The position numbers and the translations under genes are program-made. The notes below the pieces were generated by a model that ran no database searches, was not told where the DNA came from, and saw nothing but the letters and a program-made list of their open reading frames with translations. Positions 46,048 to 63,685 of a DNA stretch of 63,685 nt are shown in pieces (the stretch's first letter is position 1; each line of letters starts with the position of its first letter). The stretch spans positions 1 to 63,685 of the forward strand of contig JAJRWX010000047.1 of assembly GCA_024276605.1 (NCBI GenBank), read 5' to 3'. The DNA is from Planctomycetota bacterium (GTDB lineage: Bacteria; Planctomycetota; Phycisphaerae; UBA1845).

Positions 46048-46892
46048 GTCGCTAATTCCGGCTTGCGTGCGAGCACCATATATTGCCCACCCATACCTGT
46101 GTAACTCAAATAAGGCTCCATAAACTTCAAGTAGCGACGCAGACGTTCCGGGAAGAACAAGTAGTAATTCGTAGCCACGTTTTTTAGCCCGGCTAGGTGC
46201 AGTATATTCCTGGCATGGGCTGCTGATAGGAGCTGTGCATTGGCGTCAATGGGACAGCGTCGAACAATGAGTTGCGTAAGGGGATTGCGTGGATTGTGCT
46301 CAAAAACCAGCAAAAGCCCACCAGGTCTCAATACGCGACGAACCTCTATAAGATGTTGCACACGAATAGCCGGTTCAACATGGTGACAAACGCATGCACA
46401 AATAGCAACATCGATCGAATTATCTGCTGCGGGGATTTCCGTAGGACTGGGCATCACCAAGGCCCCAGGGCCGGCTCGTCGAACCATACTCCCGGCGGGA
46501 TCACATCCGAATACATGGTTGAAGTACGCGGATAGGCAGCGCATCAACTCGCCCGGTCCACATCCCACATCAAGCATACGCACGGTGTCGTTAGATCGCC
46601 CACTCAGTCGCCGCCGAACAACGTCCAATACATGCTCAACTTTCAGCCGCGCATAATAATCTAAGCTATCTGCGACGATAGACTTAATCGGATCAGCCAT
46701 GAGTGCTTCATAGCTGGTTATCTGACCTGTGCGGCTTTGAGGCAGTGCCGGTAATCTGGGGACTGTCAGCGTGTCGGCACCCACCCCCAATACTTTAGCA
46801 AACTCTACACGTTCCGCAGGGTCCAGTGGTATCGCTTCGGGCAGCACGCCATCTGCTGTTTTTATCGCATCTTCTTGAGAAGAGAGAAACAT
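46044..46892 (-). CDS. Class I SAM-dependent methyltransferase
   Basis: 282 residues from the ATG at 46892, with GAAGGAG about 12 bp upstream. Motif I is MLDVGCGPGELMRCL, followed by the acidic FGCDPAG, DNSIDVAICACVCHH, and LRPGGLLLVFEHNPRNPLT. This is the methyltransferase-11/UbiE-like pattern for small molecules, lipids, or sugars. The N-terminal 100 residues form a separate helical part. Coupled to the membrane protein and preceded by an SGNH protein, suggesting modification of an envelope glycan or lipid. Confidence 0.85.
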   Translation of the reverse strand: MFLSSQEDAIKTADGVLPEAIPLDPAERVEFAKVLGVGADTLTVPRLPALPQSRTGQITSYEALMADPIKSIVADSLDYYARLKVEHVLDVVRRRLSGRSNDTVRMLDVGCGPGELMRCLSAYFNHVFGCDPAGSMVRRAGPGALVMPSPTEIPAADNSIDVAICACVCHHVEPAIRVQHLIEVRRVLRPGGLLLVFEHNPRNPLTQLIVRRCPIDANAQLLSAAHARNILHLAGLKNVATNYYLFFPERLRRYLKFMEPYLSYTGMGGQYMVLARKPELAT

Positions 46893-47023
46893 GCGAATAT
46901 ATCGCTCCTTCAAGGGATGTGCTGTATTTATCCATGTGTCCGAGAAAAAGTGGGTGCAACTTTTGTACAGACGGTAGTTTTCGGAAGGTCATCGCCAAGG
47001 TCCGTAAACGGAAGTGGATCAAT

Positions 47024-48322
47024 CTATCGGACGCTCGCCAGTGTTTTGGACTGGGGAAACAATGCCGCGCCTACACCTTCCGCTACGTGCGCACCGATGA
47101 GTTTCGCGCCTTGAGCTGTAGGATGGTAGTGATCTGCTTGGAACAACAAAGAGCGATCAACGACATTGATGAACACATCCTCAAAATCAATCAGATCAAC
47201 ATGCGCTCTTTGACAATAACGCCGTAACGCAACATTAAGTATACCGAGTCCTTCACGATCACGAGGTTTTAAGTTTTCATCGTCGGCCACATACCGTACA
47301 GGCATGAAAAGCACGCCGTCTCTTTGGCAAAGCATATTCATGGTATCAACGTTGCGTATAAATAGTTGTGAAGTTGCCTCAAATGAGTTTGAGGTTTGCG
47401 CGTGAGGTGCGAGCGCGGCTTCTTCTCTAGAAGCCGTCACGTGGGGCCAAATGGTACGGGCTGCTTGACAAAGGCGTTCGAGTATGAAACTGTTTTCCCA
47501 ATACAGGCCGCTACCCTTATTGCGTAGTCTGAGATAATGTCGCGATGTTGACGCTTGCGCCAGCGTAGAGGATAACCACGGCATATGCATAGGGCGCCCA
47601 CCACTGCCTAAATCATTCCAGGCGCCGTAATAAATGACAACAGATGGCTTTAGAGGCAATACGCGCATGTAAAGTCGAATGAGCTGTTGAACCGAGTTAT
47701 GGCCACGATTGGCCGCATTGAGAACGGTAATGTGATCGCCGTATTGGTTTCGCAACCGTCGTTCAAGTTCCACCGGCCAAGTATCTGCATCATCCAAACC
47801 AAACCCAAACGCAGATGACCCACCCATCACGACGACTAATTGCTCCTTCTCCTCGGACACGCGCGGCGTTAGGTGTTTGCGAAAACCATGCTCATCAAAT
47901 GTTACATGACCTTGAGGCGTTTGCTGGGTATAATCAGGGATGTTTTCAAAACCCACAAAAGGCGATCGTTGTTGCCCCCACTTACGATAGCCTGAAAATG
48001 CATCCCCCTCCACAAATCCCCATACCATTTCCGTTGTCACAACGAACATCACGAGACCACTGAGCAAAATATAGGCAAACGCAAGTCGACGATGGGGTCG
48101 TGTGTTACGCACTAGTCGTAGCAACAGCACTGACAGCCCAAGCCCAACTATCGCAAAAAACACCAAGAGCAAGGCATAATGCCAACTGTAACCTAACACA
48201 ACAGGTTTACTGCTACGGTGCATAGTAAATGGTGATAATAAAATCAAGATAGGAACATACAGCCATACGAGTTGCCAAGCATACCGTGGATATGGTTTGT
48301 TAGTATCAGGCGTATCACTCAT
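47024..48322 (-). CDS. Membrane-anchored SGNH/GDSL hydrolase-like protein
   Basis: 432 residues from the ATG at 48322. Three hydrophobic helices lie in the first 115 residues, then a soluble SGNH domain with block I (VVVMGGSSAFGFGL, Ser), block II (LNAANRGHNS, Gly), block III (IYYGAWNDLG, Asn), and block V (DHYHPTAQG, Asp and His), so all catalytic blocks are present. Such proteins deacetylate or esterify surface sugars or lipids. It is 131 bp before the methyltransferase gene and likely co-transcribed. Confidence 0.85.
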   Translation of the reverse strand: MSDTPDTNKPYPRYAWQLVWLYVPILILLSPFTMHRSSKPVVLGYSWHYALLLVFFAIVGLGLSVLLLRLVRNTRPHRRLAFAYILLSGLVMFVVTTEMVWGFVEGDAFSGYRKWGQQRSPFVGFENIPDYTQQTPQGHVTFDEHGFRKHLTPRVSEEKEQLVVVMGGSSAFGFGLDDADTWPVELERRLRNQYGDHITVLNAANRGHNSVQQLIRLYMRVLPLKPSVVIYYGAWNDLGSGGRPMHMPWLSSTLAQASTSRHYLRLRNKGSGLYWENSFILERLCQAARTIWPHVTASREEAALAPHAQTSNSFEATSQLFIRNVDTMNMLCQRDGVLFMPVRYVADDENLKPRDREGLGILNVALRRYCQRAHVDLIDFEDVFINVVDRSLLFQADHYHPTAQGAKLIGAHVAEGVGAALFPQSKTLASVR

Positions 48323-48486
48323 CAATGCGCACACAACGTACCCCTAGCACGATGGTTTCGATATCTGCGTTGTTATCGGAAGAATACGAAGACTACATAA
48401 GCGTGCTGTAATCACTCATGAGAGCACGTCACAAGCCTTCTTCGAGAGAGAATGACCACTACTGTGAAACCAGCACAAGAGAGCCG

Positions 48487-51400
48487 CTACGGACACGGTA
48501 AAGCACAACCAGCATCGACAGCCATCTGGGTATAGCTCAAAAGTTGGAAGGATTTGACAACCAGGGTGATATCCAACGCATTGACAGTCATGGGTTGAGT
48601 AATATTGCAAATGTCCGAACCACCCAAGTCAACAGTCACTTTTAATGTGCCTTTGGAGTCACCACTAGGTAAGTGATAAAACCCCTGAAAAGCATTTACG
48701 ATGAGCGAAATGTCGGAGGCACTCGCGATACCATTTCCGTCCACATCACCCATAACATTCATCGTCGTTGTGGCCACCGGCGATTGCTGACCATTCTGAC
48801 AATGCGTGCTGACTGAATACGTCATGACTTGCGTAGTCTGCTGCGTCACTGCATCAAAAGTGCTCGGCGTAATATCCAACCCTGATACATAAAGCTTGCC
48901 ACGCTCACACGTTTCGCCTATCGGACAATCGATGTCAATGGCACAGGTACTCTTTGATTCACTGCACCGCATGATTGGCAAACAAGGAACCCCAACCGGG
49001 CAATCCGTATCATCCACGCACGCAGGTGATATATTGTTGCACGCTTTTCCACCCCATTCACCCGGCGCAAATTCGGCAGCGTTGATAGGATTATCTACCA
49101 GCGGTGCGAGCATGCCGTCAATCGTTCCACCAGGAAAATTCTGATCCAAATCGATAGGAATCGGCGTACCAACATATTTACCTAAACAGGGCCACTCTGC
49201 TGACGTCACAAACAGTTTGACCGGCGTCGCGGAATTTTGGGGTTGAGGATCGATGGCGAAATATCGCGCTCCCATAGTCGATACGATTGGCGCAAAGCAT
49301 GGCACATTGGTACACCCATCGACGGGAACACACGTAAACCCAGCCTGACACAGGTTATGATCCGGGATATGCTCACAGACCCCGGAAATGCAAACATCAG
49401 CCGTACACGCAGCGCCTTCATCAGGACAAGGCGTCTGATCGGCTGATGGCGTATTTTCGCATACACCAGTCACACATGTATCATTGGTACACGGATTTAA
49501 GTCGTCACACTCAGTGTCTAATAGGCATGTCAGGCAACCAGGTATTGCTTCCCCCACACAAACCCCGGAGAAACACTGGTCAAACTGTGAACAGGGGTTG
49601 CCGTCATTGCAAAGACCGGGGGCCGGTGTGTTACGACAAGCCCCGAAGAAACACTCGTCGAACGTGCACACATTTCCGTCATCACATTGGCTATCAATTG
49701 AACAAGGTATGCATGCCGGGTCCACTGTTGAAACACAGGCCCCCGCTACGCACTGGTCCAAAGTACAAGGATCTGCATCCGAACAGTTGTTCGTGTCATC
49801 CGACATAAAGAGACATCCAGTCACAGCGTCCCCTAAGCTGGGATCACACACATCATCCGTGCAACTCTGCGAATCATTACATCTGGCGTTGCTGGGGGTA
49901 TGCTGGCATGCACCAGCAAGGCAAGTATCAATCGTACATGTTATGCCATCATCAACACACGTCACCCCATCCGCAAGCACGTTGTTTTCACATCGACCAG
50001 CCACACATAAATCAGCCGTACAGGAATTAGCGTCATCGCAATCAATATCAATCCCACACGGCGTGCAACCTACAACCGTCTGCCCAATACATGTTCCAGA
50101 TTGGCATTGATCGAATTCAGTACAGGCATTGCCGTCATTACACAGTCCCGGTATCGAAGTATTGCGACAGGCGCCAAGGAAACAATCATCTACCGTACAT
50201 TGATTACCATCATCGCAAGTCGCATCGACCGAACACAAAATACAACCCGGCACCGCTGTTGATTGACAGACACCTGCCTGGCAGGCATCCGTCGTACAGG
50301 CATTTCCGTCACTACAGTTGTTAGTATCGTCCGGTGTTAGTACACACCCTGTTACAGGGTCACCGATGGTGGGATTACAGACATCATCCGTACATTCATT
50401 GTTATCGTTGCAACGACCATCAGAAAGTGTATGCTCGCAAACGCCTGTCTGACAGAAGTCAGTCGTACACCCGATGCCGTCGTCAGTGCAGGCTGTACCA
50501 TTGGACAGATTAGGGTGGGTACAAGTGCCGGATTGGCAGGTATCTGACGTACATTCGTTGCCGTCATCCGTGCATAACGTGCCATTTGATAAGTTCGGGT
50601 GCGTGCATGTACCAGAAGCACAGACGTCTTGGGTACACTCATTACCATCGTCGGGGCATGCACCCCCATTGTTAATAGGCTGAGGCTGACAGGCGCCGGT
50701 ACCTGCGTTACAAACCCCCACATTACAGGCGTCGTTTAGTCCGCTACAATCAACCGCAGTGCCTGCACATGTCCCCAGGGCGCATACATCATTAATCGTA
50801 CACAGGTCGTTATCATCGCAGAGGATCGTGTTATTAACCCGCTGACAGGTTCCAGATACACACGTGTCATCCGTGCATGGGTTGCCATCATCGCAATGAA
50901 CATTCGTCTGACACTCATCACATGTGTTAGTCGTATCGTTGCAGAACTGGTTGGCTAAGCAGGGATCACCGGCTGAAATGCAGTCTAACGCCGCGTCACA
51001 CACTTCCGGGCCGGTGCAGAATAATCCATCGTCCACACAATTAGCATTGTTGGTGGTGAATACACACGTACCGGCTACACACGTATCATCCGTACAACCG
51101 ATGTTATCATTGCAATCCGTTGCCACTTGACACTCGTCGCACGTATTGGTCGTATCGTTACAGAACTCATTAGCCAAGCACGGGTTGCCCGTTGAGATAC
51201 AGTTAAGCGTAGCATCACACACTTCAAGGCCGGTACAGAACAGCCCGTCATCTACACAATTGGCATTGTTGGTGGTGAATACACATACACCACTTACGCA
51301 GGTGTCGTCCGTGCAGGCCACGCCGTCGTTGCAGTCGGTGTTCACCTGACACTCGTCACAGGTATCCGTTGTGTCATTGCAAAACTGACCAACTGCACAC

Positions 51401-54400
51401 GGATTACCGGCAGAAATGCAATCTAGGACACTATCGCATATTTCGGGACCGGTACAGAACAGGCCATCACTCGGACATTGCGCGTCGTTAGGCGTGAACA
51501 CGCACGTTCCAGCAATGCACAAGTTATCCGTACAAGGTACACCGTCATTACAATGACCGGCGATTTGACATTCATCGCAGGTATCCGTGGTATCATTGCA
51601 GAATGTACCAACCGGGCAAGGATCACCGGTCGATAGGCAATCCAACGTCGCGTCACATACTTCCGTACCATTACAGAACAAACCATCGCTGGCACAGTTC
51701 AAATTATTTACCGTGTAAACACATGCGCCGGCTACGCAAGTATCGTCCGTACAACCAACCCCGTCGTCACAATGAATATCAAGAGCGCATTCGTCGCATG
51801 TATCCGTCGTATCCGCACAGAACGTACCGGCTGGACACGGATCGCCGGTGGATTGACAGTCCAACGTCGCATCACAGAATTCCGTGCCGTTGCAGAACAG
51901 CGTGTCGTCCGGGCAGTTGAGATTGTTAGCCGTGAACACACACGTTCCGGCCACGCAAGTATCGTCCGTGCAACCTATGAGGTCATTGCAATCAGTATTA
52001 ACCACACACTCGTCACATACGTCGGTCGTATCGTTACAGAATGTACCGGCCGGGCATGGATCACCGGTGGATTGACAATCCAGCGTCGCACTACAAAACT
52101 CAGTACCATTACAAAACAGTGTATCGTCCGGGCAATTCAAGTTATTGACCGTAAATACACAAGACCCGGCTACACACGTGTCGTCAGTACATCCAATCGT
52201 ATCATTACAATCAGTATTCACCTGACACTCATCACATGTATCCGTCGTATCGTTGCAGAACTCATTAACCAGGCAAGGATCGCCAGTGGATATGCAATCT
52301 AACGTGGCATCACATATTTCTAATCCCGTACAAAACAGTAAGTCGTCGGCACAGTTCAGGTCATTCGTAGTAAACACGCAGTTACCGGCTAAGCAGGTAT
52401 CGTCCGTACAACCAATACCATCATTGCAATTGGCATCGTTGTCGGGGAATATGCACATGCCATTGACACAAAGATTGTCCGAACAAGGCAGCCCATCATC
52501 GCAATCGAAGTCAACTTGACACTGGAGACAGGTATCCGTTGTTTCCGAGCAAAACTCGTTCGCCAGGCACGGATCGCCCGTACTTTGACAGTCAAGCAGT
52601 AAGTCACAGAACTCCGGACCATTGCAGAATAAACCATCGCTGGGGCAATTAAGATCATTCGTCCTGATCACACAATTCCCACTATTGCATGATTCATCCG
52701 TACACCCAACGCCATCATCACAATCAGCGGCGACGAGACATTCCAAGCACGCATTCGCGGATTCGCTGCAAAAGGCAGGGTTGGTACAAGGATTCCCAGC
52801 AGAGATACAGTCCAACACGGGATCACAAACTTCCGGCCCCGTACAAAACAGCCCGTCATCAACGCAGTTGCCGTTGTTAATAGTATAAGTGCAAACCCCG
52901 CCCACACACGTATCGTCCGTACATAGCACACCGTCCGTACAATCGGTGTTAAATTGACACTCTTCGCACGCATCGGTCACGTCGTTACAGAACTCGCCGG
53001 CCAAACACGGATTGCCGGTTGAGATACAATCCAAAGTAGCATCACATATTTCCGAGCCGGTGCAGAACAACCCATCATCCACACAATTCAAATTGTTCGT
53101 CGTGAAAACACAACTACCACTGACGCAAGTATCATCCGTGCAGGGCACCAGATCGTCGCAATGAACATCCAAAGCACACTCATCACAAGTATCAGTCGTG
53201 TCGTTACAGAAAGTGCCAACCGCACAGGGATCGCCGGTGCTCTGGCAATCCAATGTCGCGTCGCAAAATTCCGTGCCGTTACAGAACAATGAATCATCCG
53301 GGCAATTCAAGTTATTCACTGTAAAGACACACGATCCATTAACGCACGTGTCGTCCGTGCAACCAACATTATCCGTGCAGTCAGTATCCACAACACACTG
53401 ATCACATCGGTCGACTAATTCATTGCAGAATTCACCCACGGCACAAGGATCACCACTGGCTACGCACGTGCCAGCGACACAGGTCTCCACGCCGGTGCAG
53501 AACTGCAAGTCATCACAATCCGTATCTACCACGCACTGATCGCAGACGTCAGTCGTGTCATTACAGAACTGACCGACCGGACAAGGGTCGCCGGTGGAGA
53601 TACAATCCAATGATGGATCGCATATTTCCGTCCCCGTGCAGAACAAGCCATCATCCACGCAATTTGTGTTGACCGGTGTAAATAGACAACCATTGGCTAC
53701 GCACGTATCCACAGTACACGCCACACCATCGTTGCAGTCCGCATCAATCACACACTCACCACACGTGTTGTTAAGTTCATCACAAAGTTGACCGACAGGG
53801 CATGGATCACCGGGAGATTGACAATCCAGTGTTAGATCGCAGAACTCAACACCGTTACAGAAAATACCATCGCTTACGCAAAGCGAATCGTTCGGTGTAT
53901 TCACACAACTACCGCTAATGCACGTGTCATCCGTACAAGCTACGCCGTCGTCGCAATCCGGGTTGACCAAACATTCCAAACAAACATCCGCAGACTCAAA
54001 GCAGAATTCACCGGCAAGGCACGGATCACCACTGGAAATGCAATCCAACGTCAAATCGCAGATTTCCGGGCCGTTACAGAATAAACCGTCCTGCACACAA
54101 TTAGCATCGTTCGCTGTATACTGACAGAAGCCACCCACACAAGTCCCGTCGGTACAAGCAACTCCGTCATCACAATTCGCATTGATCAGGCAATCCAGGC
54201 ATGTGTCGATCGTATCATTGCAGAATTGAGTGGCTAGACAGGGGTCACCCGCTGAGATGCAATCTTGCACCGCATCACAAATTTCCGGTCCGGTACAGAA
54301 CAGACCGTCGTCAACACAGTTTGCATTGTTAAGCGTATTTGCACATACACCCGCAACGCAGGTATCGTCGGTACAGCCAATCAGATCATCACAATCCAAG

Positions 54401-57400
54401 TCCACCACGCACTCATCACAGGCATCCGTCGCCTCAATGCAGAACAAACCCGCCGCACAGGGATCTCCGGTCGCTTGGCAATCTAGCGTCGCACTACAGA
54501 ATTCGGTCCCAGTGCAGAACAACGCATCATCGGGACAGTTCAGATCATTGGCCGTAATCACACAAGTACCGGCTACACAGGTATCGTCCGTACACCCAAT
54601 CCCATCGTTACAATCGATGTCCACCTGACACTCATCACATACATCAGTCGTGTCGTTACAGAATTGGCCGGCTTGGCAGGGATTACCACTCGCCACACAT
54701 GTACCGGCTACGCACGTTTCTACCCCGGTACAGAAAAGGGTATCGTCACAGTCCAAGTCCACGACACATTGATCGCAAACATCCGTCGTGTCATTACAGA
54801 AAGTGCCCACCGGACATGGATCACCCGTCGAGATGCAGTTCAAAGTGGGATCACATATTTCATTACCCGTACAGAACAGTAAATCATCCACGCAGTTGGC
54901 GTTGTTCGGCGTAAACACGCACCCGCCGGTCACACACGTGTCATCCGTGCAGGCTATCGTATCATCACAATCCGTATCCACCAGACAATCACCACACGTA
55001 TCGGTGATCTCATTACACAATTGACCGACCGGACACGGATCGCCCGTGCTCTGACAGTCCAATGTCGCATCGCAAAATTCCGTACCCGTACAGAAAAGCG
55101 TATCGTCTGCACAATTCAGATCATTAGCGGTAAAGACGCAACTTCCGCTGACGCAGGTATCATCCGTACAGCCGACGCCGTCATCACAATGCACATCCAG
55201 CGCACACTGGTCGCAGACATCTGTCGTATCGTTGCAGAAGGTACCCACTGGACACGGATCCCCCGTACTCTGGCAATCCAAAGTAGCACTACAGAATTCC
55301 GTTCCCGTACAAAATAGCGTATCGTCTGCACAATTCAGGTCATTAGCCGTGAATACGCAACTTCCTGCCACACAGGTGTCATCCGTACAAGCCACGGCGT
55401 CATCGCAATCCGTGTCCACAACGCACTCATCACATACGTCGGTCGTATCGTTACAGAACGTGCCGACAGGACAGGGATCGCCGGTACTTTGACAGTCCAA
55501 AGTCGCACTACAAAACTCCGTACCATTACAAAACAGTGTATCGTCCGGGCAATTCAAGTTATTGACTGTGAACACACAACTACCAGCTACGCATGTATCG
55601 TCCGTACATCCGACCGTATCATCACAATGCACATCAAGTGCGCACTCGTCACAGACATCCGTCGTATCATTGCAGAAGGTACCCGCCACACAGGGGTCGC
55701 CCGTAGCCTGACAATCCAAGGTTGCATCGCAGAACTCCGTACCGGTACAAAATAGCGTATCATCCGGACAATTGAGATTATTAACCGTAAATACACACGT
55801 ACCCGCCACACAGGTGTCATCCGTGCAACCGACGGTGTCATCGCAATCCGTATCCACCACACATTCATCACAAACATCGGTCGTATCGTTACAGAAGGTG
55901 CCGACGGGACAGGGATCACCGGTACTCTGACAGTCTAATGTGGCATCACAGAATTCCGTACCGTTACAGAATAGCGTGTCATCAGGACAGTTGAGATTAT
56001 TGACCGTGAATACGCAACTTCCTGCCACACAGGTGTCATCCGTACAAGCCACGGCGTCATCGCAGTCCGTATCCACAACGCACTCATCACATACGTCGGT
56101 CGTATCGTTACAGAACGTGCCAACCGGGCAAGGATCGCCGGTAGACTGACAGTCCAACGCGGCGTCACAGAACTCCGTACCGTTACAAAATAGCAGATCG
56201 TCCGGGCAATTAAGATTGTTGACGGTAAATACGCAGGAGCCGGCTACACATGTATCATCCGTACAGCCAATCAGATCGTCGCAATGGATGTCAAGCGCAC
56301 ATTCATCGCATACATTCGTGGTCTCATTGCAGAAGGTGCCGACCGCACAGGGATCACCAGTAGAAATACAATCGAGTGTTGCGTCACAAATTTCCGTACC
56401 CGTACAGAAAAGTAGATCGTCTGTACAGTTCAGATCGTTGGTGGTAAACACACAATTGCCACCTACGCATGTATCGTCGGTACAACCAACAAGGTCATCG
56501 CAATTTAGGTTGTTATCGGGGAATACACAGGTACCGTTGATACAAAGATCGTCGGAGCATGGCAGCCCGTCATTACAGTCGGAATCAATCTGACATTCGA
56601 GGCACGTATCGGTAGTTTCATTGCAGAACTCGCCAACCAAACACGGATCACCACTGGAGAAACAGTCTGTGACTGCATCGCAAATTTCCGGACCATTGCA
56701 GAACAACCCGTCCTGAGCACAATTAGCATCATTCGCAGTGAAGACGCAGACTCCACTTACACACGTCTGGTCTGTACAAAGTACACCATCGTCACAATCG
56801 GCTCCGACCAAACATTCCAAACAAACATTCGTAGATTCACTGCAAAACGCAGGATTGGCACAAGGATTACCTGTTGAGATACAATCCAAGACAGGGTCGC
56901 AAACTTCCGGACCTGTGCAAAATAATCCATCATCGACGCAGTTCAAATTATTCGTTGCAAAGACACAGTTACCTGCCACACAAGTATCATCCGTACAAGG
57001 TACGGAATCGTTGCAGTCAGTATTAACTTGGCATGTGTCACAGACATCGGTCACATCATTGCAAAATTCCCCGGCCAAACAAGGATTTCCGGTAGAGATG
57101 CAATCCAAGGTAGCGTCGCAGATTTCAACTCCTGTGCAGAACAGCCCATCGTCCACGCAATTGAAGTTGTTGGTGGTGAAAACGCAACTACCCAGGACGC
57201 ACGTATCGTCCGTGCAAGGGACTACATCGTCACAATCAATGTCTAATGCGCATTCATCGCACAAATCAGTCGTATCGTTACAGAAGGTGCCGACCGCACA
57301 GGGATCACCGGTATTCTGGCAATCCAACGCCGCGTCGCAGAATTCCGTGCCGTTACAAAAGAGCGTATCGTCGGGACAATTCAAATTATTTACTGTGAAG

Positions 57401-58200
57401 ACACACGCGCCATTGATACAAGTGTCATCCGTACAACCAACGTTATCCGTACAGTCCGTATCCAAAACGCACTCATCGCATGTGTCCAGCGTCTCGTTAC
57501 AGAACTCACCTACCAGACAGGGATCACCACTGGCTACGCACGTACCACCGACACAGGTCTCCACGCCGGTGCAGAACTGTAAATCATCACAATCCGAGTC
57601 TATCACACACTCATCGCAAACATCAGTCGTGTCATTACAGAACTGACCAACCGGACATGGGTCGCCGGTGGAGATGCAATCCAATGATGGATCGCAAATT
57701 TCCGTCCCCGTGCAGAACAGGCCATCGTCAACGCAATTCGTATCAACTGGCGTAAACACGCAGCCATTCGCTACGCACGTATCTACCGTACACGCGACGG
57801 TATCATCACAGTCGGTATCAAAAACGCAGGCACCGCAAGTGTTATTTGCCTCATCGCAAAGTTGGCCCACGGGACATGGATCGCCCATACTTTGGCAATC
57901 CAATGTAGCATCACAGAATTCGGCACCGTTGCAGAAGATCAAATCGTCAGGACAATTGAGATTGTTTGTTGTATAAACACAGGTGCCGCTAACACAGGTA
58001 TCATCAGTGCATGCCACAGCGTCATTGCAATCCGCGTTGACCTGACACTCCAAGCAAGCGTCGATAGATTCTATACAAACCTCCGTAACCAAGCATGGAT
58101 CACCGCTCGAAATACAATCCAATAGTGGATCACAAATCTCAGGCCCATTACAGAAAAAAGCATCCTGAGTGCAGTTGGCATCGTTAGGGGTGAACACGCA
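48487..58200 (-). CDS. Giant CTDC-repeat exported protein, part after the amber codon
   Basis: About 3,236 residues in the same frame as the part before the amber codon at 58201-58203. The first possible initiator is a GTG at 58197 that is simply the Val codon of a repeat, with no ribosome binding site and no signal peptide, so this is the continuation of one gene and not an independent one. It holds 36 CTDC-type units to about residue 2,435, most of 73 residues with 12 Cys, some short (about 46 residues, FCTGVETC type). Shorter CTDC units of about 50 residues follow to about residue 2,900, then a non-repeat domain. The end is dockerin-like: MGDVDGNGIASASDISLIV near residue 3,146 and a second half (VNALDITLVVKSFQ) near 3,205. 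If readthrough does not occur this part is untranslated. Confidence 0.75.
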   Translation of the reverse strand, partial: CVFTPNDANCTQDAFFCNGPEICDPLLDCISSGDPCLVTEVCIESIDACLECQVNADCNDAVACTDDTCVSGTCVYTTNNLNCPDDLIFCNGAEFCDATLDCQSMGDPCPVGQLCDEANNTCGACVFDTDCDDTVACTVDTCVANGCVFTPVDTNCVDDGLFCTGTEICDPSLDCISTGDPCPVGQFCNDTTDVCDECVIDSDCDDLQFCTGVETCVGGTCVASGDPCLVGEFCNETLDTCDECVLDTDCTDNVGCTDDTCINGACVFTVNNLNCPDDTLFCNGTEFCDAALDCQNTGDPCAVGTFCNDTTDLCDECALDIDCDDVVPCTDDTCVLGSCVFTTNNFNCVDDGLFCTGVEICDATLDCISTGNPCLAGEFCNDVTDVCDTCQVNTDCNDSVPCTDDTCVAGNCVFATNNLNCVDDGLFCTGPEVCDPVLDCISTGNPCANPAFCSESTNVCLECLVGADCDDGVLCTDQTCVSGVCVFTANDANCAQDGLFCNGPEICDAVTDCFSSGDPCLVGEFCNETTDTCLECQIDSDCNDGLPCSDDLCINGTCVFPDNNLNCDDLVGCTDDTCVGGNCVFTTNDLNCTDDLLFCTGTEICDATLDCISTGDPCAVGTFCNETTNVCDECALDIHCDDLIGCTDDTCVAGSCVFTVNNLNCPDDLLFCNGTEFCDAALDCQSTGDPCPVGTFCNDTTDVCDECVVDTDCDDAVACTDDTCVAGSCVFTVNNLNCPDDTLFCNGTEFCDATLDCQSTGDPCPVGTFCNDTTDVCDECVVDTDCDDTVGCTDDTCVAGTCVFTVNNLNCPDDTLFCTGTEFCDATLDCQATGDPCVAGTFCNDTTDVCDECALDVHCDDTVGCTDDTCVAGSCVFTVNNLNCPDDTLFCNGTEFCSATLDCQSTGDPCPVGTFCNDTTDVCDECVVDTDCDDAVACTDDTCVAGSCVFTANDLNCADDTLFCTGTEFCSATLDCQSTGDPCPVGTFCNDTTDVCDQCALDVHCDDGVGCTDDTCVSGSCVFTANDLNCADDTLFCTGTEFCDATLDCQSTGDPCPVGQLCNEITDTCGDCLVDTDCDDTIACTDDTCVTGGCVFTPNNANCVDDLLFCTGNEICDPTLNCISTGDPCPVGTFCNDTTDVCDQCVVDLDCDDTLFCTGVETCVAGTCVASGNPCQAGQFCNDTTDVCDECQVDIDCNDGIGCTDDTCVAGTCVITANDLNCPDDALFCTGTEFCSATLDCQATGDPCAAGLFCIEATDACDECVVDLDCDDLIGCTDDTCVAGVCANTLNNANCVDDGLFCTGPEICDAVQDCISAGDPCLATQFCNDTIDTCLDCLINANCDDGVACTDGTCVGGFCQYTANDANCVQDGLFCNGPEICDLTLDCISSGDPCLAGEFCFESADVCLECLVNPDCDDGVACTDDTCISGSCVNTPNDSLCVSDGIFCNGVEFCDLTLDCQSPGDPCPVGQLCDELNNTCGECVIDADCNDGVACTVDTCVANGCLFTPVNTNCVDDGLFCTGTEICDPSLDCISTGDPCPVGQFCNDTTDVCDQCVVDTDCDDLQFCTGVETCVAGTCVASGDPCAVGEFCNELVDRCDQCVVDTDCTDNVGCTDDTCVNGSCVFTVNNLNCPDDSLFCNGTEFCDATLDCQSTGDPCAVGTFCNDTTDTCDECALDVHCDDLVPCTDDTCVSGSCVFTTNNLNCVDDGLFCTGSEICDATLDCISTGNPCLAGEFCNDVTDACEECQFNTDCTDGVLCTDDTCVGGVCTYTINNGNCVDDGLFCTGPEVCDPVLDCISAGNPCTNPAFCSESANACLECLVAADCDDGVGCTDESCNSGNCVIRTNDLNCPSDGLFCNGPEFCDLLLDCQSTGDPCLANEFCSETTDTCLQCQVDFDCDDGLPCSDNLCVNGMCIFPDNDANCNDGIGCTDDTCLAGNCVFTTNDLNCADDLLFCTGLEICDATLDCISTGDPCLVNEFCNDTTDTCDECQVNTDCNDTIGCTDDTCVAGSCVFTVNNLNCPDDTLFCNGTEFCSATLDCQSTGDPCPAGTFCNDTTDVCDECVVNTDCNDLIGCTDDTCVAGTCVFTANNLNCPDDTLFCNGTEFCDATLDCQSTGDPCPAGTFCADTTDTCDECALDIHCDDGVGCTDDTCVAGACVYTVNNLNCASDGLFCNGTEVCDATLDCLSTGDPCPVGTFCNDTTDTCDECQIAGHCNDGVPCTDNLCIAGTCVFTPNDAQCPSDGLFCTGPEICDSVLDCISAGNPCAVGQFCNDTTDTCDECQVNTDCNDGVACTDDTCVSGVCVFTTNNANCVDDGLFCTGLEVCDATLNCISTGNPCLANEFCNDTTNTCDECQVATDCNDNIGCTDDTCVAGTCVFTTNNANCVDDGLFCTGPEVCDAALDCISAGDPCLANQFCNDTTNTCDECQTNVHCDDGNPCTDDTCVSGTCQRVNNTILCDDNDLCTINDVCALGTCAGTAVDCSGLNDACNVGVCNAGTGACQPQPINNGGACPDDGNECTQDVCASGTCTHPNLSNGTLCTDDGNECTSDTCQSGTCTHPNLSNGTACTDDGIGCTTDFCQTGVCEHTLSDGRCNDNNECTDDVCNPTIGDPVTGCVLTPDDTNNCSDGNACTTDACQAGVCQSTAVPGCILCSVDATCDDGNQCTVDDCFLGACRNTSIPGLCNDGNACTEFDQCQSGTCIGQTVVGCTPCGIDIDCDDANSCTADLCVAGRCENNVLADGVTCVDDGITCTIDTCLAGACQHTPSNARCNDSQSCTDDVCDPSLGDAVTGCLFMSDDTNNCSDADPCTLDQCVAGACVSTVDPACIPCSIDSQCDDGNVCTFDECFFGACRNTPAPGLCNDGNPCSQFDQCFSGVCVGEAIPGCLTCLLDTECDDLNPCTNDTCVTGVCENTPSADQTPCPDEGAACTADVCISGVCEHIPDHNLCQAGFTCVPVDGCTNVPCFAPIVSTMGARYFAIDPQPQNSATPVKLFVTSAEWPCLGKYVGTPIPIDLDQNFPGGTIDGMLAPLVDNPINAAEFAPGEWGGKACNNISPACVDDTDCPVGVPCLPIMRCSESKSTCAIDIDCPIGETCERGKLYVSGLDITPSTFDAVTQQTTQVMTYSVSTHCQNGQQSPVATTTMNVMGDVDGNGIASASDISLIVNAFQGFYHLPSGDSKGTLKVTVDLGGSDICNITQPMTVNALDITLVVKSFQLLSYTQMAVDAGCALPCP
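52443..55026 (-). repeat. Higher-order repeat copy 2 (offset 4,074 bp)
   Basis: Landmark units (short FCTGVETC unit, GQLCDE unit, NPAFCSES unit, PDND unit, NANCDDG unit) occur in the same order as in 56517-59100, each exactly 4,074 bp away. The equivalent of the amber position is at 54127-54129 and reads TTC (Phe). Confidence 0.85.
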
Positions 58201-59100
58201 CTAACCGCTGACACACGTACTATCCGTGCAAGCAATACCGTCGTCACAATTCGCATTGACCAAACATTCAAGACAAGCATCCACGGTGTCGTTACAAAAC
58301 TCAGATGCCAAACAAGGATCACCCGCAGAGATGCAATCTAATGTCGCATCACAAATCTCAGGCCCCGTGCAGAAGAGGCCATCATCGGTGCAGTTTAAGT
58401 CATTGGTTGTGAAGACACAGCTACCCGCCACGCAGGTATCATCCGTACATGCGATTGAATCGTTGCAGTCGATGTCCACAACGCACTCATCACAAACATC
58501 CGTCGTATCATTGCAGAAGGTGCCGGCGGTACATGGGTCGCCGGTCGCTTGACAATCCAACGTTGCACTACAAAACTCCGTCCCTGTGCAAAATAGACCA
58601 TCGTCCGGACAGTTGAAATCATTGGCGGTATATACACACGCACCAGCGACACACGTATCATCCGTACAACCGATGGTGTCATTACAATCGGTATCCACTA
58701 CACATTCATCGCACGTGTCCAGCGCATCGTTACAGAACTGACCCACGGCACATGGATCACCACTCGCATTACACGTTCCAGACACGCAAGTCTCTATACC
58801 CGTACAAAACAGCATATCGTCACAATGTGAATCGATTTGACATTGATCGCACAGGTTGGTTGTTTCGTTGCAAAATGTACCACCGGTACATGGATCGCCG
58901 GTACTTTGACAATCCAACGTCGCATCGCAAAACTCCGTACCGTTACAGAACAATCCATCATCGGCACAATTAAGATTGTTCGGCGTAAACAGACAACCAT
59001 TAAGTACACAGGTATCCACAGTGCATGCCACACCGTCGTCACAATCAGTGTCAAACACACACTCGCCGCATGTTGTATTCGCTTCATCACATAGTTGGCC
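56517..59100 (-). repeat. Higher-order repeat copy 1 (offset 4,074 bp)
   Basis: Contains the amber codon and the same landmark order as copy 2. Inside both copies the short-unit/GQLCDE pair recurs after 1,233 bp (59094/57861 and 55020/53787), so a smaller duplication preceded the 4,074-bp one. Confidence 0.85.
58201..58203 (-). other. In-frame amber codon splitting the giant repeat gene
   Basis: The frame reads TCVSG, TAG, CVFTPND. In every other unit this position is a residue such as Ser, Thr, Ala, Asn, Val or Phe between Gly and Cys. Frame is identical on both sides, and repeat phase is unbroken, so only this codon separates the two parts. Confidence 0.9.
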
Positions 59101-61566
59101 TACCGGGCATGGATCGCCCGTACTTTGACAATCTAACACCGGATCGCAAAATTCCGTTCCATTACAAAACAAGGTGTCGTCAGGACAATTCAAGTTGTTA
59201 GATGTAAATACACAGCTTCCACTCAAACAAGCATTGTCAGTACAGGCTACCGCGTCGTCGCAATCGAGAGCTGTTTGACATTCATCGCATACGTCGGTCG
59301 TATCATTGCAAAATGTTCCAACTGCACACGGATCACCAGAACTTTGACATCCCAGTATCGCATTGCATACTTCAGGCCCATTACAAAAGAACCCATCATC
59401 GACGCAGTTCAAGTTATTAGCGGTAAATATGCATGACCCCGCTACGCAGGTGTCGTCCGTGCAACCGACCAGATCATCACAATCCGTATCGATCACACAT
59501 TCATCACATACGTTCGTCGTCTCATTGCAAAACGTCCCAACGGCACAGGGATCACCGGTGCTCTGACAATCCAACGTCGCATCGCAGAATTCCGTACCAT
59601 CGCAGAACAGACCGTTATCAGCGCAATTCAAATCGTTAGTCGTATACACGCAGGTACCGGTAACGCAGGTATCGTCCGTACAACCGACCAGATCATTACA
59701 ATCCGTATCAATCGCACACTCGTCACAGACATTTGTCGTCTCATTACAGAACATACCGGCTAAACACGGATCACCGGTACTCTGGCAATCTAATGCCGCA
59801 TCACAGAATTCCGTACCATTGCAGAATAACGAGTCATCAGCGCAGTTGAGATTGTTCACCGTGAAGACGCAACTGCCGGCTACGCAGGTGTCGTCCGTAC
59901 AGCCCACCAAGTCATTGCAATCTGTGTCAATGACACACTCATCGCAAACATTCGTAGTCTCGTTACAGAAAGTACCGGCCAAACACGGATCGCCCGTGTT
60001 CTGACAGTCCAGCGCCGGGTCGCAGAACTCTGTGCCGGTGCAAAATAGGGTATCGTCCGGACAATTCAAATTGTTGACGGTAAAGACACAAGCACCACTG
60101 ACACAGGTGTCATCCGTACAACCAACCAAGTCGTCACAATCCAAATCTACTTGACATTCGTCGCAGGTATTTGTCGTATCGTTACAAAACTGACCGGCCA
60201 AACACGGATTGCCAGTGGCTTGGCAGTCTAGCACCGCATCACAGAACTCGACGCCCGTGCAAAAAAGGCCGTCATCGACGCAGTTCAGATCGTTTGTCGT
60301 ATAAACACAAGAACCAGCTACACAGGTATCATCCGTACAAGGTACGCCGTCAGTACAATCAGTATCTAACACACACTCGTCGCACACATCCGTCGTGTCG
60401 TTGCAAAAAGTGCCAGCCAAACATGGATCGCCGGTAGACTGACAGTCCAATACCGCATCGCAAAACTCCGTGCCCGTGCAAAACAATGTATCATCAGGGC
60501 AGTTCAAATCATTGGTTGTATATACACACGAGTTGCTAACGCAAGTATCATCTGTGCAACCTATGCCATCGTTACACTGCGCATCTACACTACATGCACC
60601 GGTCGCGACTGTGATGATACCATCCGTAAGACCCGTCACCTGACCAATCCAGCCACTGATCCCAAAACCCGGTACGGTTAACGACACATCCCAAACACCG
60701 GATGCACCGGCGCTGGCAATAACTGGAAAGCCGGCAAGATCCCCTAAAAACGTAACCGCTGCCGCAGGGCTGCCACTTGAGTTAGTCGCTCCGTTACGAT
60801 CGGTCTGTAAGGTAGAATCCGTATCGAAGGGGTCGAATTGACCAATACCGGGCCAAGGATCGCCCAACTCGATAATGTCAACCGGGAGCGCTGGCGTAAA
60901 CTCGAGCGTACCTACCGCACCCGCACGCGGTGTAAGCTCCAACAAAATATCAACGGCGTCGGTGACATCACCCCCAATGCTACCGAACACGATCAACGTG
61001 CCTCCGCCACCCGGTGACACAAACAGATCGTTTACCACAAGATCCGAAGTTGGCGTGACGGTTATCGTACCAGTGGTAAGCGTAGTAACTACACCTTCCC
61101 AACCACTGCTACCCAAACTTGGTATCGAAAGCATGACATCCCACACGCCAATAGCGTCGGGACTGCTAATTATTGGAAAAGTCGAAAGCGGTCCGGAAAA
61201 TGTCACTGATGCAGCAGCTGCACCACTATCATCCACGCTACCGTTCCAAAGTACTGACCCAGTACCCAACGTATCAAACGGTGAATACACACCTCCACCA
61301 GGCCAGGGGTCGCCATTTTGCAAAATATCGATCGGCGGTTCTGTCGTGAACTGCACGGTTCCCGTCGCGCCGGCACGGGGGATCAGTTCCAACAAGATGG
61401 TAACGCCAAAAGTAGATTCGCCTGCGATGTTACCCGAAACCACCACACTGGCCGTGCCATTTGGAGTCATGCTAACGTTGGCAACCGATAGGTCAGCCGC
61501 GCGCACGACCGACACGCCGCCAAGCAGCAAAGTAAGCAAAATTATCCATTGGCATCTGCGTAACAT
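58201..61566 (-). CDS. Giant CTDC-repeat exported protein, N-terminal part up to the amber codon
   Basis: 1,121 residues from the ATG at 61566, chosen because it gives a clean signal peptide (MLRRCQWIILL to VVRA, cleavage near residue 23); a TTG 12 codons upstream is the alternative. Two related beta-sandwich domains follow (about 24-150 and 165-300), each with MTPNG/VSPGGGG, LLEL.PRAGA.GT..FT, GDPWPG.G..(S/D)PFDT and SGVWDV-type segments. From residue 322 twelve CTDC units begin, ending at the amber codon. Alone, this product would be exported but would lack the dockerin-like tail. Third of three tandem related genes on this strand. Confidence 0.85.
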   Translation of the reverse strand: MLRRCQWIILLTLLLGGVSVVRAADLSVANVSMTPNGTASVVVSGNIAGESTFGVTILLELIPRAGATGTVQFTTEPPIDILQNGDPWPGGGVYSPFDTLGTGSVLWNGSVDDSGAAAASVTFSGPLSTFPIISSPDAIGVWDVMLSIPSLGSSGWEGVVTTLTTGTITVTPTSDLVVNDLFVSPGGGGTLIVFGSIGGDVTDAVDILLELTPRAGAVGTLEFTPALPVDIIELGDPWPGIGQFDPFDTDSTLQTDRNGATNSSGSPAAAVTFLGDLAGFPVIASAGASGVWDVSLTVPGFGISGWIGQVTGLTDGIITVATGACSVDAQCNDGIGCTDDTCVSNSCVYTTNDLNCPDDTLFCTGTEFCDAVLDCQSTGDPCLAGTFCNDTTDVCDECVLDTDCTDGVPCTDDTCVAGSCVYTTNDLNCVDDGLFCTGVEFCDAVLDCQATGNPCLAGQFCNDTTNTCDECQVDLDCDDLVGCTDDTCVSGACVFTVNNLNCPDDTLFCTGTEFCDPALDCQNTGDPCLAGTFCNETTNVCDECVIDTDCNDLVGCTDDTCVAGSCVFTVNNLNCADDSLFCNGTEFCDAALDCQSTGDPCLAGMFCNETTNVCDECAIDTDCNDLVGCTDDTCVTGTCVYTTNDLNCADNGLFCDGTEFCDATLDCQSTGDPCAVGTFCNETTNVCDECVIDTDCDDLVGCTDDTCVAGSCIFTANNLNCVDDGFFCNGPEVCNAILGCQSSGDPCAVGTFCNDTTDVCDECQTALDCDDAVACTDNACLSGSCVFTSNNLNCPDDTLFCNGTEFCDPVLDCQSTGDPCPVGQLCDEANTTCGECVFDTDCDDGVACTVDTCVLNGCLFTPNNLNCADDGLFCNGTEFCDATLDCQSTGDPCTGGTFCNETTNLCDQCQIDSHCDDMLFCTGIETCVSGTCNASGDPCAVGQFCNDALDTCDECVVDTDCNDTIGCTDDTCVAGACVYTANDFNCPDDGLFCTGTEFCSATLDCQATGDPCTAGTFCNDTTDVCDECVVDIDCNDSIACTDDTCVAGSCVFTTNDLNCTDDGLFCTGPEICDATLDCISAGDPCLASEFCNDTVDACLECLVNANCDDGIACTDSTCVSG

Positions 61567-61703
61567 AGGCCAAATTTCTTTCACAAACAGGTTACCGTCC
61601 AACTACCGCATGCTCGCATGTTGTGGCGTTTCGTATCACGAAACATGCCGGAACAATCCGATCCTCAAACATGACATACAATCAAGCATGCTCAAACCCT
61701 TCA

Positions 61704-62561
61704 TCAACGCATACCCCGCCCGGATCGACCCTTTCGCGATCCTGGTCGGTACTTATCACCATCATCCACGCAATTCACGACATCAATATCGTGCCGACAA
61801 ATACCACCGTCACATCGATCGATGGTACATGTATTATTATCCCTACATTGTCGATCATTTGTGCAGGCCTTTGGAGAAACTGTAATCGTAGCATGATGTA
61901 AAGTGGTCGGAACACCTTCCCAGCTACTCGCCCCGGACGCAGTAGAAAGTGTCACGTCCCAGACACCACGCGCCGTGGCGCTCACCTCAATGGGAAACTC
62001 GCTCAATTCCCCGGAAAAAGTCATAAGCTCTGCCACGAACGTCCCGTTATCATCAACCGCCCCATTCAAACGCACGGATTTAGTCCGCGATGTATCGAAC
62101 GGCGAGAACGTCCCGGCGCCTGGCCACACGTCATCACCCTGTCGAATGTCTACTGTCATATTCTCGCTTTGTTGCAGTACTATCGATGCACGACCGCCGA
62201 TAGGTTGATGAACCTGATATTTAGGTCGCTGGCCAAGTTCGGAAGGCGTAAATGAAACCGTGCCACGACTGCCTGCCCGGGGTGTGATTTCCAATAAGAC
62301 CGTCCAACCAACCGTCGGCTTACCCTCTATCGAACCCCACACACGCACACTGCCCGAACCATTCGGCTTTAGCATCACATCGCGCACGCGCATTTCGGCA
62401 GCCATTACACTGGTATGACAGGTCACTATCACCATCAGCGCAATGGTCCACCATCGCCAAGAAGTGCTGGCAGCATTGAACCGTACCCCAAGGTCGGAAC
62501 ACGCAGGGTTGTGAACTCCGATCGTCATCACATCACTCACGTCTAGTTTCTGACAATTCAT
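61704..62561 (-). CDS. Short paralogue of the giant protein: beta-sandwich domain plus a single CTDC unit
   Basis: About 285 residues from the ATG at 62561 (ATG at 62528 possible). A hydrophobic segment (WWTIALMVIVTCHTSVMA) precedes AEMRVRDVMLKPNGSGSV. The beta domain matches the two in the downstream giant gene: LLEITPRAGSRGTVSFTP, DDVWPGAGTFSPFDT, ELSEFPI, ARGVWDVTLS. A short insert (about 35 residues, YQVHQPIGGRASIVLQQ) is special to this copy. It ends with one CTDC unit (CTNDRQCRDNNTCTIDRC) that breaks off after NCVDDG into an Arg/Lys/Gly tail unlike any repeat, suggesting loss of an array. It begins 16 bp after the stop of the preceding gene. Confidence 0.75.
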   Translation of the reverse strand: MNCQKLDVSDVMTIGVHNPACSDLGVRFNAASTSWRWWTIALMVIVTCHTSVMAAEMRVRDVMLKPNGSGSVRVWGSIEGKPTVGWTVLLEITPRAGSRGTVSFTPSELGQRPKYQVHQPIGGRASIVLQQSENMTVDIRQGDDVWPGAGTFSPFDTSRTKSVRLNGAVDDNGTFVAELMTFSGELSEFPIEVSATARGVWDVTLSTASGASSWEGVPTTLHHATITVSPKACTNDRQCRDNNTCTIDRCDGGICRHDIDVVNCVDDGDKYRPGSRKGRSGRGMR

Positions 62562-62576
62562 GCTCGACACTCTCGG

Positions 62577-63685
62577 TCACGGTGAAATCAAAGGCAACAC
62601 GAAAAATGGGTTAACGAACGTTCTTGCTTCCCCAACGTCCGTCAATACCACACGACCACTTTTATCTACGTCATATACATTACCAATTGGTACCAACATA
62701 AACGGATTTACATTGGTCCGTATCGTCGTAACGTCGGTCAGTATTGTCTTACGGTCTGCATCAACATTGCCCGCAAGAATACCTATATAAAACACAGCAT
62801 TACCACCTGGATTCGTTTCACCACTTGGCAGAACCAACGGATTCCCCGTCAGCTCACCATCCACAGCCACGCCACCCGATGACACCTGCAACGAATCCAT
62901 AGTGACACCCAGCCAACGGTTCACGATATGATTATCGATAATCACAATCGAAACCTCGGTAAATCCACCAGCATCCACAGCCGTAACGGAAATCGCCGTA
63001 GCCACATTCGCCACCGGGGTGAAAACAGTCCCTGCATCCGTCGTCCAATCAAACTGAAAAGCGGCTGCAGGCGTCGTCGCAAACTGAACTAAACCGTCAA
63101 AGATAATTCGAATCCCTGTAATACCCCGCACATAATTGGTAATGTTGTTCACCGTCGCCACGGATCCATTAGCTAGGAATGAATAACTCGGGTCTGGAGC
63201 ATCACTAAATTTGCCGGAATAAAACAGCTCGATATTGCTGATTCGTGTAGCAGGAATGCACGCATCGCCAATTTCATCACAAAGCAAAGGTACACATGGA
63301 TCGCCGGCTGATTGGCAATCCAACGTCGCATCACAGAATTCCGTACCGTCACAGAACAAACCGTTGTCAGCGCAATTCAAATCGTTAGTCGTAAACACAC
63401 ATGTTCCAGCTACGCAGGTATCATCCGTACAACCAACGCCGTCAGTGCAATCCGTATCGATCACACACTCATCACATACGTTCGTCGTCTCGTTACAGAA
63501 CGTACCAGCCAAACAAGGATCACCGGTACTTTGACAATCCAACGTCGCATCACAGAATTCCGTACCATCGCAGAACAGGCCGTTGTCGGCGCAGTTGAGA
63601 TCGTTAGTCGTAAACACACACGTACCAGCTACGCAGGTGTCGTCCGTGCAACCGACCAGATCGTCACAGTCCGTATCGATCACAC
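62577..63685 (-). CDS. C-terminal part of another CTDC-repeat protein, cut by the window edge
   Basis: 369 codons visible; the frame is open at the window end. The first 145 residues hold two CTDC units of the VIDTDC type, nearly identical to each other. A beta-rich domain follows (ISNIELFYSGKFSD, GIRIIFDG, WLGVTMDSLQVSS), about 150 residues. The tail has two dockerin-like halves (GNVDADRKTILTDVTTIRTNV and VYDVDKSGRVVLTDVGEARTFV), each with calcium-loop Asp residues, ending PLISP. It is upstream of and in the same direction as its two relatives. Confidence 0.85.
   Translation of the reverse strand, partial: VIDTDCDDLVGCTDDTCVAGTCVFTTNDLNCADNGLFCDGTEFCDATLDCQSTGDPCLAGTFCNETTNVCDECVIDTDCTDGVGCTDDTCVAGTCVFTTNDLNCADNGLFCDGTEFCDATLDCQSAGDPCVPLLCDEIGDACIPATRISNIELFYSGKFSDAPDPSYSFLANGSVATVNNITNYVRGITGIRIIFDGLVQFATTPAAAFQFDWTTDAGTVFTPVANVATAISVTAVDAGGFTEVSIVIIDNHIVNRWLGVTMDSLQVSSGGVAVDGELTGNPLVLPSGETNPGGNAVFYIGILAGNVDADRKTILTDVTTIRTNVNPFMLVPIGNVYDVDKSGRVVLTDVGEARTFVNPFFVLPLISP

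Follow-up and report, generated by a model that had tools for sequence, protein, structure and literature searches.

A probable recent nonsense mutation in a giant exported cysteine-repeat gene of a planctomycete

The present analysis concerns an in-frame TAG codon in a giant gene of cysteine-rich, CTDC-like repeats on contig JAJRWX010000047.1 of Planctomycetota bacterium (GTDB lineage Bacteria; Planctomycetota; Phycisphaerae; UBA1845; GenBank assembly GCA_024276605.1). The stretch analysed, hereafter the window, is positions 1 to 63,685 of the forward strand. The TAG lies on the minus strand at 58203-58201 and is codon 1122 of an otherwise open frame of 4,359 codons (61566-48487). A first-pass annotation made from the sequence alone had described a single in-frame TAG interrupting a repeat gene of about 4,360 codons, and its position, phase and length are all confirmed: the 13,080 bases from the ATG at 61566 to 48487 make up 4,360 triplets, with stops solely at triplets 1122 and 4360. 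Judged from sequence comparison, the TAG is probably a recent nonsense mutation, carried by the sequenced strain or by part of its population.

The interrupted frame and the encoded protein

The features of the giant gene are as follows.

58201..58203, minus strand: in-frame TAG, codon 1122 of the frame starting at 61566 (from the sequence)
58201..61566, minus strand: upstream part of the giant gene, 1,121 codons plus the TAG, predicted short product (open reading frame (ORF) translation)
48487..58200, minus strand: downstream part in the same frame, 3,237 codons plus the terminal stop, without a signal peptide-like stretch (ORF and hydropathy)
61498..61566, minus strand: signal-peptide-like N-terminus, about residues 1-23, limit set by eye (translation and hydropathy)
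60580..61497, minus strand: tandem N-terminal domain spanning about residues 24-329 (nothing in Pfam above cut-off)
49374..60576, minus strand: array of CTDC-like cysteine modules, limits approximate (own motif; Pfam)
48658..48750, minus strand: dockerin-like C-terminal stretch (Dockerin_1 at 19.2 bits, below the cut-off of 22.9)

The frames 61566-58201 (1,121 amino acids) and 58200-48487 (3,237 amino acids) share phase, and the repeat motif occurs at residues 1049, 1122 and 1195, so that the 73-residue spacing runs on unbroken over the TAG, as had been claimed. The codon, in the context GTC AGC GGT TAG TGC GTG TTC ACC, stands one residue ahead of a module's last cysteine, in a variable column of the repeat that is filled by 26 different codons among 55 modules (TAG counted). 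A chance open frame is ruled out by the 3,237 stop-free codons downstream with 498 of 498 cysteine columns conserved. The gene offers a very large target for nonsense mutation, 1,142 of 4,370 sense codons being one step from a stop.

The commonest unit of the array has 73 residues and 12 cysteines. A pattern search found 59 CTDC-like modules, 12 of which start ahead of the TAG, the 12th being severed by it; the first-pass annotation had likewise counted 12 units in the short form, while its total of about 48 differs from the present count. The only piece in which PF00526 (CTDC repeat) exceeds its cut-off is that of the last 704 residues (67.8 vs 27 bits, eight stretches), and no Pfam family was found above cut-off in either half as a whole or in a 220-residue piece of the main array, nor any NCBIfam family in four pieces of the protein. 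The long form had been called dockerin-tailed, which is too strong a term for a Dockerin_1 (PF00404) score of 19.2 against a curated cut-off of 22.9 bits, and the C-terminal stretch is therefore called dockerin-like only. An AlphaFold prediction of three repeat units reached a mean pLDDT of 43.7 and was not used. The array also contains a higher-order internal duplication at an offset of 1,358 residues (within 49374-60576), whose copies are 73.5% identical in the window's genome and 71.6% identical in a relative of the same genus; because it is present in both species, the duplication is probably older, by this comparison, than their split.

The tandem N-terminal domain was matched in seven of the 60 genomes searched, the window's genome included. 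A profile of the 220-residue repeat gave 110 matches at E <= 1e-20 in 23 of 51 family genomes; the matches are overlapping rather than independent, with 49 falling in the window's genome and that of the orthologue described below. The longest frame with this profile outside the genus has 2,325 codons among the matches listed, and a separate search lists one of 3,157 codons (genome G012). The TAG is the sole stop within the 110 matches. Two matches recorded with one TAA each (G000:C26 and G033:C41, the latter from among the matches listed) were considered as further interrupted repeat genes and rejected, both being ordinary gene ends.

An intact orthologue and the state of the downstream part

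The orthologue of the giant gene lies on the same-genus contig JAJDDW010000110.1 (Phycisphaerae bacterium isolate OFTM182; hereafter L018), where it forms one frame of 4,366 codons (L018:1867-14967). With the window protein counted from an earlier TTG at 61602, the two proteins are 83.2% identical over 4,366 aligned residues, the alignment gaps being four extra N-terminal residues on the window side and one single-residue gap in the signal peptide. The first-pass annotation had proposed looking for the TAG in related genomes; it is absent from the single orthologue found, which has TTC (Phe) at the site. In both species, the TAG column of the unit at the 1,358-residue offset is likewise occupied by a Phe codon and, because of this, the stop is very probably the derived state as far as the compared sequences tell. 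Elsewhere in the genus, contig C36 of a third genome (G002) has at one end a repeat fragment with 72% identity. The C-terminal 470 residues find their best match in that genome in a frame of 655 residues, at 42% identity, and this frame was taken as a paralogue and rejected as an orthologue.

All 631 cysteine columns are identical between the two orthologues, 133 of 133 upstream and 498 of 498 downstream of the TAG. Nonsynonymous difference (pN) is 0.0954 upstream and 0.0953 downstream, and synonymous sites are saturated or nearly so (pS 0.74 and 0.77, respectively). With pN equal and every downstream cysteine column retained, relaxed selection downstream of the TAG was not seen. A fresh nonsense mutation had been one of the explanations offered by the first-pass annotation, and the sense codon in the intact sister orthologue, together with a downstream part free of decay, supports it.

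The absence of lost cysteines also sets a limit on the age of the stop. Under the assumption that the downstream part has evolved neutrally (untranslated) since the stop arose, zero lost cysteines or added stops in 3,237 codons limit neutral drift since the TAG to at most 0.0020-0.0024 substitutions per site (95%; transition weights 1 to 4). At 0.01 substitutions per site without selection, about 12 cysteines would be expected to have been destroyed, compared with none observed.

Five neighbouring genes stand in the same order as in L018 over 43963-63685, one being cut by the contig end in both. Two genes lie ahead of the giant gene.

61704..62570, minus strand: short paralogue whose N-terminal domain is of the type seen in the giant gene, with a single CTDC-like module and a basic tail (sequence comparison)
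62577..63683, minus strand: C-terminal portion of a further repeat protein that runs off the contig end (sequence comparison)

The short paralogue adjoins the giant gene in L018 too (L018:910-1749). The giant gene is followed by a GDSL-type lipase/acylhydrolase gene (47024-48334; PF13472 above cut-off), whose counterpart in the relative is 70% identical. Synteny with the relative's 78-kb contig ends at about 43963, and further left there is one weak match only (14512-16920, 28% identity). This further cysteine-repeat gene seems to be divided between two contigs: its C-terminal part (62577-63683) closes the window, and an N-terminal part whose repeats are near-identical opens contig C96 (G000:C96:1-2200; L069).

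Decoding, readthrough, reinitiation and assembly

TAG looks like a working stop in this genome. It ends 11 of 36 window ORFs (an analyst-chosen list, with the TAG under study being one of the 11), and all four genes that the first-pass annotation had named as ending in TAG (16918, 11014, 12627 and 40743) do so. PrfA (release factor 1) is present, although barely over its cut-off (428.4 vs 423.25 bits). PylS was not found in the window's genome by a search that passes its cut-off in one of 14 control genomes, and none of 46 tRNA genes has the anticodon CTA by ARAGORN typing, in a search that scored 150 of 171 first-look candidates in a genome 96.03% complete, so that a missed tRNA is possible. 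That the organism reads TAG as sense, through pyrrolysine or reassignment, has nothing beyond the open frame in its favour; it was rejected on the tRNA, PylS and PrfA searches together with the TAG-ended ORFs, and its probability is negligible.

Readthrough in an otherwise standard code, programmed or tolerated, would have most ribosomes release a short untethered form, while some insert an amino acid and go on to the long form. Conservation is equal on the two sides of the TAG, the variability of the repeat column suggests that many inserted residues might be harmless, and the five-base stretch ahead of the TAG (GCGGT) is rich in G, all of which fits such a scheme. In the parts of an E. coli reporter-library study drawn on here, G-rich bases before a stop are associated with readthrough, but a T after the stop favours termination and TAG leaks less than TGA (PMC11126739), and a T directly follows the present TAG. 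Furthermore, the stop is not conserved, the sole orthologue having Phe; neither a CUA-reading tRNA nor PylS was found; and the stop falls inside a module, leaving it one cysteine short. A separately encoded short paralogue exists in both species, adjoining the giant gene, and no other stop occurs among the 110 overlapping family matches. No stimulatory RNA structure beyond expectation was found after the stop: the fold is unremarkable (z -1.3) and ranks as the 46th most stable of 55 modules, although predicted RNA structure was unlinked to readthrough in the same parts of the E. coli study (PMC11126739). Programmed readthrough, put forward by the first-pass annotation, thus finds no support in the orthologue, the tRNA set, the base after the stop or the site within the module, and we regard readthrough of either kind as quite improbable. 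A newly acquired leaky stop, by which one gene in one species would give two exported forms, one short and untethered and one long with the dockerin-like tail, is given a similarly slim, if anything slightly slimmer, chance.

Translation of the downstream part as a gene of its own would require reinitiation, for which a GTG two codons after the TAG is the candidate. This GTG lies 3 bases past the TAG, close enough for reinitiation, and its missing Shine-Dalgarno-like motif is no objection, as the giant gene's own start has none either. Among the 27 in-frame ATG, GTG and TTG codons in the first 500 downstream codons, only the last (a TTG) has such a motif; the motif is found at the listed start of just 4 of the 26 window ORFs tested and is absent from the starts of the giant gene and its relative, and its absence was therefore dropped as evidence against a second start. 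However, the resulting protein, of 3,236 residues with 497 cysteines, would stay in the cytoplasm for want of a signal peptide-like stretch: peak hydropathy downstream is 1.33, compared with 2.49 in the gene's signal peptide (cysteines excluded from the sum). The L018 orthologue, moreover, is a single unbroken frame. Two separate genes are thus highly improbable. Of the first-pass statement that the downstream part has neither signal peptide nor start signal, the first half holds, and the second is uninformative in a window where the motif is rare.

An error in assembling the array had also been proposed. The array is repetitive in protein and not in DNA, its longest exact repeats having a median of 12 bases and a maximum of 61. 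Across the window and the initial 5 kb of contig C96, every word of at least 13 bases that includes any base of the TAG is unique; a single 12-base word beginning at the last base of the TAG does recur there. A whole-genome search with the 601 bases around the TAG found no second copy, the other matches of at least 145 bases being 64-71% identical and a further two, of only 56 and 30 bases, missing the TAG. Because no word of at least 13 bases with the TAG recurs and no array repeat exceeds 61 bases, confusion among repeats is very unlikely to have produced the TAG, and the repeat-driven version of the proposal is contradicted. At the near-identical repeats, the assembler seems to have broken contigs rather than misjoined them.

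The exact-word test leaves a single-base consensus error at the site, in which a miscall at one position, or the entry of a minority allele into the assembly, would have changed a sense codon to TAG. The rest of the giant gene appears, from its sequence, to be fully functional, and the window's contig terminates inside near-identical repeats, both of which would fit an error, whereas the lack of repeated words over the TAG and the shortness of exact repeats in the array speak against one. Short-read assemblies of good depth seldom contain single-base consensus errors, which would also count against this explanation if the window was well covered. An exact 24-base search over the TAG in viral contigs gave no match and is uninformative for a bacterial gene. 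The sister metagenome-assembled genome came from 150-base Illumina reads in a Megahit co-assembly (project PRJNA755678; PMC10732223), which would weigh in favour of an error here if the window's genome came from the same project. Overall, a consensus error is unlikely, though the least so of the alternatives.

The proposed nonsense allele, its weight and known systems

A recent nonsense mutation is the reading we prefer, and several points weigh against it. The undecayed downstream part fits readthrough or error equally well; an intact downstream part is what a very recent stop would leave, and for this reason neither it nor the drift limit separates a young stop from these two. The change from the relative's TTC to TAG takes two substitutions, so that an intermediate codon must be assumed. 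The TAG base itself is read from the assembly consensus, and a divergent suppressor tRNA could have escaped a search that scored 150 of 171 candidates. Finally, the genomes compared yielded a single orthologue: in the third genome of the genus, neither the N-terminal domain nor the neighbouring gene was matched.

Considering these results, we propose the following scenario for the nonsense allele. The TAG allele would be young, and ribosomes would stop at it, yielding an exported fragment of 1,121 residues. This fragment would lack the dockerin-like C-terminal region, and its last module would keep three of its four cysteines. The remaining 74% of the gene would be left unmade in cells carrying the TAG allele.

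The finding is real but ordinary. A nonsense allele matters little beyond annotation, where the two frames belong together under one interrupted gene. It also suggests that a lineage can lose, or vary in, a 13-kb cysteine-rich gene that two species have kept almost without gaps despite near-saturated synonymous divergence. Readthrough, if shown, would make this gene a striking example, with two forms of a giant secreted bacterial protein coming from a single gene.

Among known families and systems, the protein resembles the CTDC repeat family in its last 704 residues and departs from it in the main array, where the piece searched stayed below the cut-offs. Giant genes of planctomycetes have reportedly been described (for example PMC5177795), and the likeness lies in the presence of a very long gene in a planctomycete. 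In the parts consulted of a survey of bacterial in-frame stops (PMC7918605), the set is restricted to stops common to at least two species, unlike the present TAG, which its one orthologue does not share; the conserved downstream part is common to both, and short persistence was proposed there. The present gene is far longer than inlA of Listeria and belongs to an uncultured planctomycete; in kind, the allele is like the inlA premature-stop alleles, which reportedly truncate an exported surface protein through an in-frame stop in some lineages (PMC12427964).

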